DNA from: Candidatus Chloroploca asiatica
GTDB lineage: Bacteria > Chloroflexota > Chloroflexia > Chloroflexales > Chloroflexaceae
DNA length: 64,000 nucleotides
NCBI RefSeq assembly: GCF_002532075.1
Contig: NZ_LYXE01000063.1
Span: forward strand, 124,001 to 188,000
Reading direction: 5' to 3'
The first letter of the stretch is position 1. Every line of letters begins with the position of its first letter. This document shows positions 44,815 through 54,986 of this stretch, piece by piece. Under the pieces are notes generated by a model that saw only the letters and a list, made by a program, of their open reading frames with translations, made no database searches and was not told where the DNA came from. Made by a program: the position numbers and the translations under genes.

Positions 44815-46680
44815 TTAATGGCGTATGAGGGGCAAGTAGACCCGCGACAGCGGCGCAAGCGGTGTGGTGGTCGGTGTGATCGTGGGCATACGTGTTACGG
44901 TGGCCGTGCCGGTCGGTGTGGCTGTTAGCGTGCCGGTGGGCGTCGCCGTACCCGTCGCCGTACCGGTGGGCGTTGACGTCGCGGTGCCCGTTGCCGTACC
45001 CGTCGCCGTACCGGTGGGCGTTGACGTCGCGGTGCCCGTTGCCGTGCCAGTGGGCGTCGGCGTGACGGTGCGCGTCGGCGTCGCCGTGGTGGTGCCGGTG
45101 GGCGTCGGCGTGGCGGTGCGCGTCGCCGTGGCGGTGCGTGTTGGTGAAGCGGTTGGCGGGGCAGGGGTAGCCGTAGCCGTTGGGTTGTTGGCGCTCAGTG
45201 CAGTCAGGGCCGCATCAAGTTGCATGCGCGGCTTGATAATGGTAGGAAAACCGGAGCGTTGCGCAGCGATTGGTTTGCCGGTGATTTGCAGGGTGTTCAA
45301 GAGCAAGGTAACGCTTGCGGTAGGAGCAGCCTGCTTCAAGACGGCCCAGGCCCCGGCGACATGAGGTGCCGCCATTGAGGTGCCCGAATACCAGGCATAG
45401 GTAGTAGCTGGGACGGACGAGAGGGTAAAATGACCTGGAGCAAGTAAACTCAGAAACGAGGCACTATTCGAGAAACTTGCCACCTGATCAACGGGCAGGC
45501 CCGAGGAACTGGTCGTCGTTGCACCAACGCTGATTGCCGTCGAGATACAGGCCGGAAACGAGATTGCGTCACTATAGCTTGTATTGCCTGAAGCAACGAC
45601 GGTCGCAATGCCAACACTGCGCAACGAGTCGATAATTTGCTTCATCGGATCATTATCACACGTCGTCGTATAGCGACCACCGCCGAGACTCATATTCACA
45701 GCAGCCAGCGCATAGGTATCGCGTAGGCCATAGACATGCTCAAGTGCCGCCATAAGATCGCTTGACCAAGCCGTCACACAATATGAAGAGCCACACGCAA
45801 CGCGGGAAAAGACCTGCACCGCAATCAGACCAGCCTCAGGGGCAACCCCGGCGACCGTCTGGGGCACGCCACCGATCGAGAGAGTGATCGGCTTGCCGGC
45901 CACAATGCCAGCCACGTGCGTCCCGTGCGCACATCCCGTAATTGAGGCATCACATGCCTGACCTGAACCAGGTTGCGTTGAGGAACTGACCCCACCGGGA
46001 CAGAGGCTTGTTGTACTCGAAGTATTGGAAGAGAAACAGGCTTCGGCGACCGTCTGACCGGCAAGAAAGGGATGCGTTGTCTGGACACCCGTATCGAGCA
46101 CGGCGACCACGTACCCATCACCAGTAAAGCCTTGCGCCCAGGCCGTCGTTGCACCGATCAGTGCGGTACTCTCGTGGAGGTTAGCTTGCAACATCAGATC
46201 AGACTGAAGGCGCACCACCTCGGGGGAGGCAGCGAGTACCTGGAGCGCGGCAGCATCAACGTCGAGGGCCATAGCCGGGGTCAGAGTATAGCGATGGCGA
46301 ATGGTGGCAACGTGCCCAGCAAGCCGAGACTGGACGGCATCCTGCGCCTGTTCAATGCGGCCGCGCTGGTCAGCGACGTCAGTCGCAGTCGTCAACGAGC
46401 CTTCGGGAACCGTGGGAACACCAAGCGTCACGATAACCTGTACACTGCCATCTGCCTGGGCGACTCTGCTCAATTCAGCGAGACGCTTGACAAAGTCAGG
46501 ATCGCGCTGCGAGGCAACATGGGCGGCATGTGAACCAGACTGCTCAGCAAAACGGGCCTGGGCAGCATCACCAGTGGGAAACTGAACAAGCGTGAGCAGC
46601 AGCAATACAAAGAGAACCAGCGCATGCACAGCATAGCGGCGACGGCGCGGCAACGGTACTAACGATGAAAAACATGGCAT
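44815..46680 (-). CDS. Secreted subtilisin-like serine protease (S8) with Thr-rich tail
   Basis: 621-aa exported protease. A signal peptide with basic start covers residues about 1-38, then an I9-type propeptide (about 70-165), and an S8 catalytic domain with Asp in [14 protein letters not shown] (about 197), His in [14 protein letters not shown] (about 254) and Ser in [13 protein letters not shown] (about 431), with the oxyanion Asn near [13 protein letters not shown]. Residues about 515-610 are tandem [10 protein letters not shown]-type repeats forming a surface linker, ending VYLPLIRH. Four extra Cys ([19 protein letters not shown]) suggest disulfides. Likely cell-surface anchored. Confidence 0.92.
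44870..45180 (-). repeat. Tandem repeats encoding the [11 protein letters not shown] linker
   Basis: Imperfect 18- and 24-base repeats (built on ACCGGCACGGC/GTCGGCGTG) code for about 95 residues of Thr/Pro/Gly/Ala at the protease C-terminus. Low complexity and recent expansion are evident. Such Thr-rich linkers are common on Chloroflexota surface proteins and are likely O-glycosylated, by inference. Confidence 0.8.
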
Positions 46681-48076: not shown

Positions 48077-48589
48077 TCATGTTTCGACCACAACGGTATG
48101 CAGGCCCACAATCTGGCCTGTTGATGAGATCCCCAGCAGAAAGACATCGGCCTGATAGCCGCCGATGCGACAGGCAACCGGATTGGCAAGACGCTGCCGA
48201 AAGACCTCGCGCAGCGTCGCAAAGCGGGCCGCCTGAGCACGTTGCTCTGGCGACATCCAAGGCTCGGCACGAGCAGGGGCCGCCAGGAAGGCATCGGCGT
48301 CAAGCATGCGCATTGGAGCACCATCGGCAAGGGTGTGGCAAACCTGCGAGGGGGTCAGACCGGAGTATGCAGGGGGCACAAAAGGATCGAGGGGTGCATC
48401 AATTTCACTGGGATAGAGCAAGCCTTCGGCGGCCTGGGCAAGCGCAGCAAGATCAGGATGCGGATAGGGACGGCGGATCAACGGGAGAAAGACCTGGCTG
48501 GGGGCAGAACTCGGACGAGCACCGACTGGTGGATGTGCGAAAGCGAGCGTACAGGTCAACACAACAACCATCCATACAAGAACACGCAT
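48077..48589 (-). CDS. Exported protein with LPLIR motif
   Basis: 170 aa. Signal peptide MRVLVWMVVVLTCTLAFAHP then a short Ser/Pro linker (SSAPSQ) and VFLPLIRRPYPHPD. The remaining part is helical with a possible Cys pair (SQVCHTLADG, NPVACRIGGYQ) and ends in a beta-like tail (VFLLGISSTGQIVGLHTVVV). ATG 48589 has GAGAGG six bases upstream; the longer frame (to 48628) lacks one. LPLIR also occurs at the C-terminus of the neighbouring protease. No enzyme motif recognised. Confidence 0.65.
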   Translation of the reverse strand: MRVLVWMVVVLTCTLAFAHPPVGARPSSAPSQVFLPLIRRPYPHPDLAALAQAAEGLLYPSEIDAPLDPFVPPAYSGLTPSQVCHTLADGAPMRMLDADAFLAAPARAEPWMSPEQRAQAARFATLREVFRQRLANPVACRIGGYQADVFLLGISSTGQIVGLHTVVVET

Positions 48590-48713
48590 AACAACCTCTC
48601 TGTGGTGTAGGACTAATACGTGCCACATAAGCCCCTCGCCGCCACATCAACCCTCCCGTCAAAGGGTTTCTCCCCACGTACACCCACGGAACAGCCTGGA
48701 CACCGGCGACCAT

Positions 48714-49126: not shown

Positions 49127-50164
49127 ATGCAGATTCCAATCGATCATCCTGAAGCGTTATTAGCGTTGCTGCGCGTACTGCACGAGCAGATTCGTGATGC
49201 AGTGGTGACAGCCTGCGAACAGTCGGCAGTCGAAGAACTGGCTGGCGTGGCCGAAGATGGGCAGGCCGGCGATACGATCTATGCAATCGACCGGGTAAGT
49301 GAGGCGCTGCTCGTGGATTTTTTTGGTGAGCATGTGGCCCCACGCTGGCCGCTGGTGTTGTTCGCTGAGGGATTGCCGCCCGATGGTATCACGCTGCCGG
49401 TGGGGATGCCACCTGACAAAGCCGTGATCCGTGTGCTCGTTGATCCGATTGACGGCACCCGCGGCTTGATGTATCAGAAACGCCCGGCCTGGATACTGAC
49501 CGGCGTGGCCCCCAATCATGGCCCGGCAACCCGCCTGCGTGACATTGTGCTGGCGGTGCAGACCGAGATTCCTCTGGTCAAGCAGCATCTCTGCGATACG
49601 CTCTGGGCGGTGGCTGGCGGGCCGCTGCACGCGGAACGACTCAATCGACTGAGTGGTGAACGGTGGCCGATCACACTGCGTCCATCACGAGCGACCACGA
49701 TTGCCCACGGCTTTGCCATGATCAGCCGCTTCTTTCCGGGGGCACGGGAAGAACTCGCGGCGATTGATGAAGCGATGGTACGGGCGGTACTCGGCCCACC
49801 CCAGGCGGGCAAGGCCCACTGTTTTGAGGATCAGTATATCTGCTCGGGAGGCCAACTCTACGAGTTGATCGCTGGGCACGACCGGTTTGTCGCTGACCTA
49901 CGCCCGCTGCTTGACCAATATATGGCAGCCCGCGGCGAAGCCCTGGGAATCTGTTGTCATCCGTATGATCTCTGTACGGCACTGCTGGCCGAACAAGCCG
50001 GGGTGCTCCTCACGGATGAGTATGGCAACCCATTCGATGCTCCTTTCACACTTGATGCTGACGTGGGCTGGATTGGCTATGCGAATGCAGCCATTCGGAG
50101 CCAGATCGAGCCTGTGCTCCTGGCTGAGTTACGCAGGCGGTTGAAATCAGGGAGTGCCAACTGA
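49127..50164 (+). CDS. Inositol monophosphatase-family phosphatase
   Basis: 345 aa, cytoplasmic, of the Li-sensitive phosphatase fold (inositol, bisphosphate nucleotidase or fructose-1,6-bisphosphatase type). The metal motif [12 protein letters not shown] (about 105-116) is intact, preceded by the acidic [11 protein letters not shown] that would supply the first Glu, and followed near the C-terminus by [20 protein letters not shown], the D-x-A-A-like closing motif. An unusual insertion spans about residues 150-250. ATG 49127; the longer frame adds ten residues without support. It is paired with the GHMP-kinase homologue downstream, both on the plus strand. Substrate unknown, probably a sugar phosphate. 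Confidence 0.85.
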
Positions 50165-50176
50165 AGTCGGCACTCC
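50151..50176 (+). other. Hairpin overlapping the phosphatase stop
   Basis: GGAGTGCC (50151-50158) pairs with GGCACTCC (50169-50176). The stem starts inside the last codons and covers the TGA stop. Weak terminator or stability element. Confidence 0.5.
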
Positions 50177-50220
50177 GGTACACCCAATTCAAGCTTTAAT
50201 AACCTTCAGCCCTTCATGTT

Positions 50221-50259
50221 CTGCGGAACGATGCCAACTTCGTTGGCATCGTTCCGCAG
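50221..50259 (+). other. Perfect 18-bp hairpin before the GHMP homologue
   Basis: Arms 50221-50238 and 50242-50259 pair perfectly around TTC. It is immediately followed by AGGAG, the ribosome-binding site of the next gene. It can terminate upstream transcripts or, if transcribed, hold the ribosome-binding site close to a stable stem. Confidence 0.75.
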
Positions 50260-50271
50260 AGGAGTCCCTAC

Positions 50272-51699
50272 GTGCCACATGAGTTTGAGCGTTTTCTGCA
50301 GGTTGTCCGGGCGGAACGAGATTTTTTTGGGCATACCGAGGGTTCTATCTACGCGAGTCGTGGGCCAGGTTGGGTTGATCTGGTTGGCGGCGCGGCTTTT
50401 GATGGCGGCACACTTGCGCTAGGCTGGCCACTTGGAACCGGGACATTTGTGGCTGTGCAACCACAGAGCGAACCCGTGATCGAGATACGTATCCTGCCTG
50501 ACCCACACGCAACTGGGGAGGTTCACCCTCGCTCGGGACAACGCCAAAGAGACAAGAATCGCACTCCTCTTGCCGACGTTGCGTCATACAGGGTGCAGTG
50601 TCATCAATTAGCGACCCTCGATGGTACACCATCCAGCTATGGCGAGGGGAGAAAGGTGCTGAGCGAATTCCCGGCGATGGTGCAGATCGTCGGTGGGATC
50701 TGGCTCGCCCTGATGCGTGAAGAGTTTGTGCGTTTTCCAGGCGGGGTGAGGGTGCTGGTGCAGCCGAACAGCGGCCCTGGCGCAACAATGGGCCTTGGGG
50801 CGGCCATAGCGCAGGCACTTGTCGCGGCGTTTCAGGTACAGCTGGCCCCGCGTGAACTGGGTCTGCTGGTTCAGACGGCACTGCATCGGAGCAGTGGCAC
50901 GAATCCGGGCGTGCTTGGGCCACTCGTCAGTGTCTGTAGCCACGCTGGGTCACTGCTGCTCGTGCATCAACAACCAGCCTGGCTCTGGGGCGAATTGCAT
51001 CTCCCGCCGGGCACCGCACTGTGGGCGGTGGCGATCGGAGATGGACCGCCGATAGAACCCCAGCATCAATTGCAGGTGGCAACGGCGATGGCCTACCATC
51101 TCGTCGCTGAGGTGACCGCGACAGCGCCAAACGACGCAAACAGCTACTGGCGCGGGTATCTGAGCAACCTTGGAACAGCCCGCTATGAAGCACGGGTGCG
51201 TGCCACGTTGCCGGTGAGCCTGAGTGGGGCCGCGTTTCTGGAACGCGCAGACGTACCTGCCGGCATATCTATTGATCCTGCGGTATCCTATCCGGTGCGA
51301 GCAGCCGCAGCCCTCGCCGTTGAAGAACATCTACGCGCACGCATGATCGCGGCGCTATTACGGGCGGCGGCAAGCAAAGCTCAGCGCGACGAAGATCTGC
51401 ATCTAGTCGGCGAATTACTGGCGCGCTCACACGGCGGCCAGCGTGCCGCAGGCTTGGGCGATCCGCGGGCCGACCGGCTCGTCGAAGTCATTGCCCTCGA
51501 CGGGGGCAGCCTCGGTCTCTATGGGGCACGGGCAACCGCAGCGGCGTCGGGGGCAAGCCTGGTCGTGCTGGGCCATAACGATGCCGAAGCTGCGCTACAA
51601 ACCCTCGTTGACAAGGTTGTCCAGGAGTCGGGATTGCATATGCGAATAACTGGCGGCACATCATCGGGAGCGCACGCATCCGGGGTACGCGAGGTGTGA
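50272..51699 (+). CDS. GHMP-kinase homologue (L-arabinokinase/galactokinase-like) with degraded active site
   Basis: 475 aa, GTG 50272 with GAGGAG seven bases upstream. It aligns along its length with L-arabinokinase-type GHMP enzymes: RGPGWVDLVGGAAFDGG (about 29-45), SHGGQRAAGLGDPRADRLVE, SLGLYGARATAAASGASLVV (about 413) and a C-terminal TGGTSSGAHASG. Yet key residues differ from the family pattern as I know it: the Mg-binding Ser of the GLSSSA loop is GLGAAIA, the catalytic Asp of GVMDQ is missing (GVLGP, about 213), and the Gly-rich ITGGGSGG loop is ATAAASGA. This suggests a pseudokinase. The frame is intact, so it is maintained. Possible binding or regulatory partner of the phosphatase next door. 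Confidence 0.75.
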   Translation: MPHEFERFLQVVRAERDFFGHTEGSIYASRGPGWVDLVGGAAFDGGTLALGWPLGTGTFVAVQPQSEPVIEIRILPDPHATGEVHPRSGQRQRDKNRTPLADVASYRVQCHQLATLDGTPSSYGEGRKVLSEFPAMVQIVGGIWLALMREEFVRFPGGVRVLVQPNSGPGATMGLGAAIAQALVAAFQVQLAPRELGLLVQTALHRSSGTNPGVLGPLVSVCSHAGSLLLVHQQPAWLWGELHLPPGTALWAVAIGDGPPIEPQHQLQVATAMAYHLVAEVTATAPNDANSYWRGYLSNLGTARYEARVRATLPVSLSGAAFLERADVPAGISIDPAVSYPVRAAAALAVEEHLRARMIAALLRAAASKAQRDEDLHLVGELLARSHGGQRAAGLGDPRADRLVEVIALDGGSLGLYGARATAAASGASLVVLGHNDAEAALQTLVDKVVQESGLHMRITGGTSSGAHASGVREV

Positions 51700-51742: not shown

Positions 51743-52549
51743 ATGATGCCACGCTTGATGGTCATTCTGCTGATAAGTCTGCTAACCACTGGATGCAGCA
51801 ACCATGCGACGGATCAGCCAAGCATCACCGCGCTACCTACCTTCGAGGCAACGCTGACGCCAACGATGATTATGATGACCCCAACGATCGTCGGGACACC
51901 AACGCCAACAGCACGTGAACTGATGGCAACCACCCAGGCTGAAGAAGCCCGGATAGAGGCAACCACCCTTGCGGCGCAGCGGCAAGAGGTTGCGCAACAG
52001 GTCTTTCGTGACGATTTTGTCGATAATCGCAACGCCTGGTTTACCGGGGTGTTCAATGAGGTTGAAACAAATACCATCGAGGATGGCTTTTTCAAAATAG
52101 CCTGGACAGCCTCAGGGGCCTCGTACGAACTCTATGAGGTACGCGAGCTCAATAATTTCATTGCTGAACTCGACTGCCGCATTCACGAAGGTGATCGCAA
52201 GGGGAGCTGCAGCCTCGTTTTTGGGCATCAGGGTGAGTTGGGGTTTTACAAATACGAGCTCTTTGAGGATTACTACAGGCTCTTCATCATTCAGAGCAAT
52301 GCTGAGCCAGGGATCCTGGCCGAAGGCGATCCGTCATCGGTGATCAGCGCACCTGGGGAACTCAACCAGCTACGCATCATCCGTGAAGGCACCCGCATCC
52401 AAATTGAACTGAACAACGTCATGCTTGCCAGGGTCAACGATAACACCTACCCTGGCGGCAAAGTTGGCGTCTCGACCAACTCATACAGCGACGTTGACAA
52501 GGTCGAAGTCTGGTTGGATCGCTTTGCGATCTGGAGCTTGCCGGAGTAA
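51743..52549 (+). CDS. Lipoprotein with LamG/3-keto-disaccharide hydrolase-like domain
   Basis: 268 aa. Signal peptide with lipobox LLTTGCSN (Cys about residue 18) anchors it to the outer face of the membrane. A Thr/Pro-rich linker (about 25-60, TLTPTMIMMTPTIVGTPTPT) and a short helix precede a beta-sandwich domain (about 95-265: FRDDFVDNRNAWFTG, NFIAELDCRIHEGDRKGSC, LRIIREGTRIQIELN, GKVGVSTNSY), the pattern of concanavalin-like (DUF1080/LamG) domains that bind glycans. GAGG lies before the ATG pair; 51743 or 51746 may be used. Confidence 0.78.
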   Translation: MMPRLMVILLISLLTTGCSNHATDQPSITALPTFEATLTPTMIMMTPTIVGTPTPTARELMATTQAEEARIEATTLAAQRQEVAQQVFRDDFVDNRNAWFTGVFNEVETNTIEDGFFKIAWTASGASYELYEVRELNNFIAELDCRIHEGDRKGSCSLVFGHQGELGFYKYELFEDYYRLFIIQSNAEPGILAEGDPSSVISAPGELNQLRIIREGTRIQIELNNVMLARVNDNTYPGGKVGVSTNSYSDVDKVEVWLDRFAIWSLPE

Positions 52550-54327: not shown

Positions 54328-54903
54328 TTAGCCCTGCGCACGATGCAAGCGCTGTTCAAGCTCTTCGCAGATCGCGTGAAGGAGCAGACCGTGGACTTCC
54401 TGGATGCGGGCGCTGTTGTCGCTCGGCACCACGAGGCTATGATCGGCGAGGTTCAGTGCCAAACCGCCATCTTTGCCAAGCAGGGCAAACGTGATGAGAC
54501 CCGCCTCACGGGCCGCATGTAGCGCGGCCAGAAGATTGGGCGAACCACCAGAGGTACTGAAGATAACCAGCAGATCGCCGGGCCGGCCAAGCGCCTGGAT
54601 CTGACGGGCAAAGACCTGTTCGTAACCAAAATCATTGGCGATGCAGGTCAGCGCCCCAACATCGGTATTGAGGCAAATCCCAGCGAGCGGGCGGCGATCG
54701 CTCCGATAGCGCCCGACCAGTTCCTCGGCAAGATGGATCGCATCAGCGGCACTGCCACCATTGCCACACGTAAAGAGCGTCTGCCCGGCCAACACCGCCT
54801 CGGCAATGCGCTCAACGAACGCATCGACCGCCGCTGACTGCGCCGCAAAACGCTGGAGCACGGCAACGAGTTCATCGCATTGATCAGTAAAAGAGCTATG
54901 CAT
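54328..54903 (-). CDS. gmhA: Phosphoheptose isomerase-like SIS-domain protein
   Basis: 191 aa. GmhA converts sedoheptulose 7-phosphate to D-glycero-manno-heptose 7-phosphate. The SIS signature LFTCGNGGSAADAIHLAEEL, LNTDVGALTCIANDFGYEQVF, LLVIFSTSGGSPNLLAAL and the C-terminal QEVHGLLLHAICEELEQ are as in GmhA. ATG 54903 best fits the family's N-terminus; ATGs at 54918 and 54945 are in frame and none has a good ribosome-binding site. Chloroflexota lack LPS, so heptose probably goes to envelope glycans; a DiaA-like role is also possible. Confidence 0.8.
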   Translation of the reverse strand: MHSSFTDQCDELVAVLQRFAAQSAAVDAFVERIAEAVLAGQTLFTCGNGGSAADAIHLAEELVGRYRSDRRPLAGICLNTDVGALTCIANDFGYEQVFARQIQALGRPGDLLVIFSTSGGSPNLLAALHAAREAGLITFALLGKDGGLALNLADHSLVVPSDNSARIQEVHGLLLHAICEELEQRLHRAQG

Positions 54904-54986
54904 CACAAGAGTAACCATACTATACGGCGGCAAAATCTTTGGCATTGTAGCATACGTTCAAGCCAGCCACGATAGTAGTGCCAACT

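Follow-up and report, generated by a model that had tools for sequence, protein, structure and literature searches.

Why does a bacterium keep a gene of the L-arabinokinase/galactokinase family whose product has lost the residues of catalysis, and does the phosphatase gene beside it account for its retention? The question is raised by a locus of Candidatus Chloroploca asiatica (RefSeq assembly GCF_002532075.1, contig NZ_LYXE01000063.1), studied here within a window of 64,000 nucleotides (contig positions 124,001 to 188,000, forward strand; coordinates are those of the window unless another locus is named). An earlier note had described an intact frame with a good ribosome-binding site, and both descriptions hold. 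The frame runs uninterrupted on the plus strand from a GTG at 50272 to a TGA stop at 51699 (475 amino acids), with GGAG at 50261 to 50264, 7 bases 5′ of the GTG, and the start is conserved among orthologues.

The end-to-end likeness to L-arabinokinases and galactokinases that the note had seen is true homology, not chance. In a single-sequence search of solved structures, the protein matched PDB 9ulx ("AbGHMP"; E value, 6.6e-50; residues 16 to 469) and no other chain; a profile search against 9ulx gave an E value of 3.1e-81. PF08544 scored 17.1 bits (cut-off, 21), PF00288 was not found in a Pfam search, and galactokinase model TIGR00131 scored 20.1 bits, far short of its equivalog cut-off of 226.65; active relatives pass the cut-offs of both PF00288 and PF08544. 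An AlphaFold2 model (pLDDT 86.7, pTM 0.87) was compared by VIA-align with Pyrococcus furiosus galactokinase 1s4e (Z 37.0, 2.0 Å over 340 residues), human GALK1 (Z 36.8), and yeast Gal3p (3v2u; Z 28), and by this model the galactokinase/GHMP two-domain fold is kept despite the loss of motifs. A link to heptose metabolism through a SIS-domain gene (54328 to 54945) was considered and dropped: that gene is on the opposite strand, and galactokinases head the fold matches.

Motifs were compared in an alignment of relatives from 61 Chloroflexales genomes and from the phylum, which splits the family in two, with active members on one side and 21 degenerate proteins (that of the window and 20 others) on the other. 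Active members retain APGR[LV]D, ADYSG, GKG[VL]SSSA, PCG[VI]MDQ, DSG[IV]RHxVxGxDY, and ITGGGSGG. All 21 degenerate proteins have PGW for PGR, a replaced ADY, and a phosphate-loop site that is unrelated in sequence and marked by a 4-residue deletion, and both DSG...DY and GGGSGG are gone. Two of the positions, R34 and D216, we take to be catalytic by reference to the known motifs of galactokinases (R37 and D186 in human GALK1). At the first (codon 50371 to 50373), Arg in 19/19 active relatives is Trp in 21/21 pseudokinases; at the second (50917 to 50919), Asp in 19/19 is Gly in 21/21, in keeping with the note's reading of GVMDQ as GVLGP with the catalytic Asp gone. Its replacement of ITGGGSGG (motif 3) by ATAAASGA is likewise seen, at residues 421 to 428 (51532 to 51555). 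The phosphate loop is lost as the note had said, but not at the place named: GLGAAIA (residues 174 to 180), read there as the counterpart of GLSSSA, lies just beyond the aligned site, where the remnant of GKGVSSSAAL is SGPGATMGLG (residues 167 to 176, 50770 to 50799), with a 4-residue deletion just before it. The note had missed the loss of the APGR Arg (W34) and of the sugar-side motifs ADY and DSGxRHxVxGxDY, the latter a degenerate remnant at residues 254 to 264 (51031 to 51063).

No alternative gapping restores Ser or Asp at the catalytic positions, because all 21 clade members agree; shifted gaps are ruled out. The marks of the enzymes, namely the phosphate loop GLSSSA, the catalytic Asp and Arg, and motif 3 GGGSGG, are absent from the window's protein, which on these comparisons almost certainly has no kinase activity. 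That it remains a kinase through displaced residues would fit the intact fold, yet with Arg and Asp fixed as Trp and Gly, a shorter phosphate loop, and neither motif 3 nor the sugar-side motifs left, we regard this as extremely improbable.

A maximum-likelihood tree of 43 rows, drawn with a midpoint root only, separates two clades, one of 21 pseudokinases and one of 20 active members, each with support of 100/100. On the path between the two clades lie two GHMP proteins with different motif damage, in genomes G009 (L044:8400-9809) and G004 (copy G004a; L051:5186-6613). The simplest reading of this tree would be one loss in a Chloroflexaceae ancestor, followed by further decay. The pseudokinase clade is confined to Chloroflexaceae (family f1), where it spans several genera with its losses in common; W34 and G216 are present in every member, and the note's description of a conserved pseudokinase is upheld. 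Scanning one genome per species (84,980 species) with two short patterns, which more distant members could escape, returned 18 loci, in Ca. Chloroploca, Viridilinea, Oscillochloris, Chloroflexus, or unclassified Chloroflexota, mostly Chloroflexales. The gene is absent from several relatives and is therefore dispensable in places.

Such absences would suit a decaying gene heading for loss, as would its faster evolution than that of the neighbouring gene and the existence of a true pseudogene in genome G043 (family f2), where a truncated active-type kinase remnant (L097:5882-6211) lies directly behind the phosphatase gene. Selection was estimated as dN/dS (Nei-Gojobori), a simple method applied to few pairs. 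Among three Chloroploca genomes the pseudokinase gave 0.18 to 0.20, the phosphatase 0.09 to 0.11, and a SerA-like neighbour 0.02 to 0.03; in Chloroflexus the pseudokinase gave 0.11 to 0.17, with dS near saturation in most pairs and a value of 0.17 in the one unsaturated pair. These estimates indicate purifying selection on the pseudokinase gene, weaker than on its neighbours. Frames are intact in all 21 clade members, about 60 columns are invariant across genera, and the predicted fold is confident. With dN/dS at 0.11 to 0.20, well below 1, decay toward loss is largely refuted and stands as a marginal prospect; dN/dS and conservation together rule out a pseudogene.

The constraint that remains is unevenly placed. 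Out of 155 columns invariant in active members, 30 survive in the pseudokinases, and the most constrained stretch is residues 344 to 400 (51301 to 51471), which holds 22 of the 60 clade-invariant columns in 12% of the protein, including the clade-specific R364AAA, Q371, R372, D375, Q390, D397, and A400. Most likely, constraint has moved to the C-terminal helices. At seven columns invariant in active members, 21/21 pseudokinases share a different residue (W34, G216, A270, Q390, D397, A400, and R420), and there are further invariant, clade-specific polar residues. Clade-specific invariants (W34, H243, Q390, D397, and R420), some of them at former active-site positions, could point to a new ligand or reaction. 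A former active site turned to another ligand or another chemistry is nonetheless an unlikely account, given that what was the phosphate loop has become shorter and differs from member to member.

Directly upstream lies the gene that the note had called an intact, inositol-monophosphatase-type neighbour, correctly so: an inositol-monophosphatase-fold phosphatase of 345 amino acids (49127 to 50164, plus strand), with its metal ligands E81, D106, D109, and D281 (the E, DxxD, and D of the family) invariant in 30 sequences. It resembles SuhB and MJ0109 of the inositol monophosphatase family in fold (Z about 25, 2.4 to 2.7 Å) and conserves DPIDGT and the other metal ligands, though at only about 16% identity. 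The window's copy scores 13.8 bits with PF00459 (cut-off, 27), and an orthologue (G058) passes at 34.8; judged by its ligands, the enzyme is presumably active. The gap between the two genes (50165 to 50271) holds a REP-like palindrome, with about 50 half-sites in the genome, and a single-copy perfect hairpin (50220 to 50260). A hairpin with compensated stem changes occupies the equivalent site in G001, and G002 has neither element. Third in the cassette is a putative lipoprotein gene with a PF06439-like (ConA-like) domain (51743 to 52549, plus strand), whose Chloroflexus counterpart carries instead a zinc ribbon at the N terminus and what looks like a membrane helix. On the minus strand nearby are genes for a NuiA-like nuclease inhibitor (48080 to 48628; PF07924 E value, 2.8e-22) that looks secreted, with what resembles a signal sequence at its N terminus, and for an apparently secreted, subtilisin-like protease (44815 to 46680) that bears a long tail of low-complexity Thr/Pro/Gly repeats.

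The pairing of the two genes, which the note had described, is borne out across Chloroflexaceae genera, and its origin is deeper than the pseudokinase. Elsewhere in Chloroflexota, galT, an inositol-monophosphatase-like phosphatase gene, and an L-arabinokinase-like GHMP kinase gene form a Leloir-type operon (L180:3031-8752; L181:4335-8927; L182:6590-10068; L056:6925-10419). All eleven active loci inspected (families f24 and f6) have this order, and the two genomes of genus g21 in family f4 share it. The two f24 loci typed have a GalE-like epimerase gene immediately upstream, preceded by a DeoR-type regulator gene in the one f24 locus where that gene was typed; a GH43 gene follows in G202. Three active loci (G037, G049, and G051) are without the galT-phosphatase linkage. 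Since phosphatase and kinase are adjacent in the active operons, their adjacency is older than the pseudokinase. Three Chloroflexaceae genomes still carry active copies (G004b, G014b, and G018), with GalT adjoining in the last two, and the window's genome encodes a canonical galactokinase (C126) and GalT (C88) elsewhere. The ratio of kinase to phosphatase distance is 2.3 (1.73 to 2.99) for pseudokinase pairs, compared with 1.24 (1.04 to 1.64) for active pairs; the pairs are not independent, and the two ranges do not overlap.

Does the pseudokinase then serve the phosphatase? A dedicated regulatory subunit or scaffold would agree with an ancestral gene order and with genes that are adjacent and co-oriented in 12 of the 14 clade members outside Chloroflexus; in G002 they overlap, and in several other genomes they lie close together. 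It would agree, too, with the length of the Chloroflexus branch (1.21, the longest inside the clade), on which the phosphatase has been lost. However, the adjacency was inherited from the active operon and need not mean interaction, and each gene occurs without the other. The phosphatase is missing from each of the seven Chloroflexus genomes in which the pseudokinase persists under purifying selection; in the loci read, the pseudokinase sits beside the lipoprotein gene, usually with a glyoxalase-like gene upstream. Conversely, phosphatase is followed by lipoprotein with no pseudokinase between them in four genomes (G012, G021, G023, and G035), and more genomes have a phosphatase but no pseudokinase match; a profile search of the phosphatase loci in genomes without a match detected no hidden divergent pseudokinase, and brought up just the active-type remnant of G043. 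These reciprocal losses rule out a sole dependence of the pseudokinase on the phosphatase. The note's proposal of phosphatase control is weakened accordingly: it may be one role and is not the only one, because Chloroflexus has lost the phosphatase and retains the pseudokinase under selection. We consider a dedicated phosphatase subunit improbable, if less so than a reused active site.

The other role proposed, sugar sensing, finds no support in the motifs: those for sugar and for nucleotide are both lost. A Gal3p-like transducer would retain them, and the protein at 50272 to 51699 does not. Sensing of sugar or of ATP is unlikely because both binding sites are degenerate, and we are fairly sure that the protein does neither.

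Descent from the operon kinase, loss of its motifs, a fold predicted to be intact, purifying selection, and reciprocal gene losses can all be read from sequence comparison, and the account that best joins them is as follows. The protein descends from the sugar-1-kinase of the galT-phosphatase-kinase operon found across Chloroflexota. In a Chloroflexaceae ancestor, the kinase copy beside the phosphatase gave up its phosphate loop and motif 3, together with both catalytic residues (Arg and Asp) and those of the sugar side; the fold was retained, and the resulting pseudokinase was kept under purifying selection. The putative function is non-catalytic binding of another protein through the C-terminal helical half, which we think somewhat better than an even bet; in genomes that have both genes, the phosphatase may count among its partners, and it cannot be the sole reason for retention. 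A GHMP pseudokinase of operon-kinase descent, now acting as a non-catalytic protein-binding protein, is on balance our preferred explanation overall. That it amounts to a clade-wide bacterial GHMP pseudokinase in which both substrate sites were lost and a new conserved surface or pocket was gained, with a new function in anoxygenic phototrophs, is a more tentative proposal, with chances a little short of even.

Along with the pseudokinase, the galT-phosphatase-kinase operon of Chloroflexota comes to light. The active relatives and the two degenerate intermediate branches make the steps from enzyme to non-enzyme testable, and lineages in which one of the two, operon partner or pseudokinase, is gone do the same for dependence on the partner. 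In a literature search that reached few subscription papers, no bacterial GHMP pseudokinase turned up, nor did anything on AbGHMP.

Among known proteins, AbGHMP (PDB 9ulx/9uly) is the closest solved relative, homologous from end to end (the E value of 6.6e-50 given above). The active bacterial L-arabinokinase/galactokinase-like GHMP kinases hold the corresponding operon position in Chloroflexota; they keep APGR, ADY, GKGxSSSA, G[VI]MDQ, DSGxRHxVxGxDY, and GGGSGG, whereas the window's protein keeps none of these intact. To our knowledge, GHMP-fold proteins that work without catalysis are few and all eukaryotic (Gal3p and XOL-1). XOL-1 of Caenorhabditis elegans is not known to bind ATP. It is a GHMP-family developmental regulator according to the paper that cites its description (Luz et al. 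2003, cited in PMC8825453), a GHMP fold in a regulatory role, eukaryotic and of a separate lineage, and is likened here by description only. Yeast Gal3p is a galactokinase paralogue that lost enzymatic activity after duplication and became dedicated to regulation (PMC7556753); like the window's protein, it has a galactokinase fold (Z 28) that was retained when kinase activity was lost. The title of 3v2u gives galactose and ATP as the ligands in the Gal3p crystal, so Gal3p still binds both, whereas in the window's protein both sites are degenerate, and it is not known to have a partner like Gal80. The closest precedents for non-catalytic use of a GHMP fold are Gal3p and XOL-1, and, as judged from its motifs, the Chloroflexaceae protein has gone further in loss than Gal3p.
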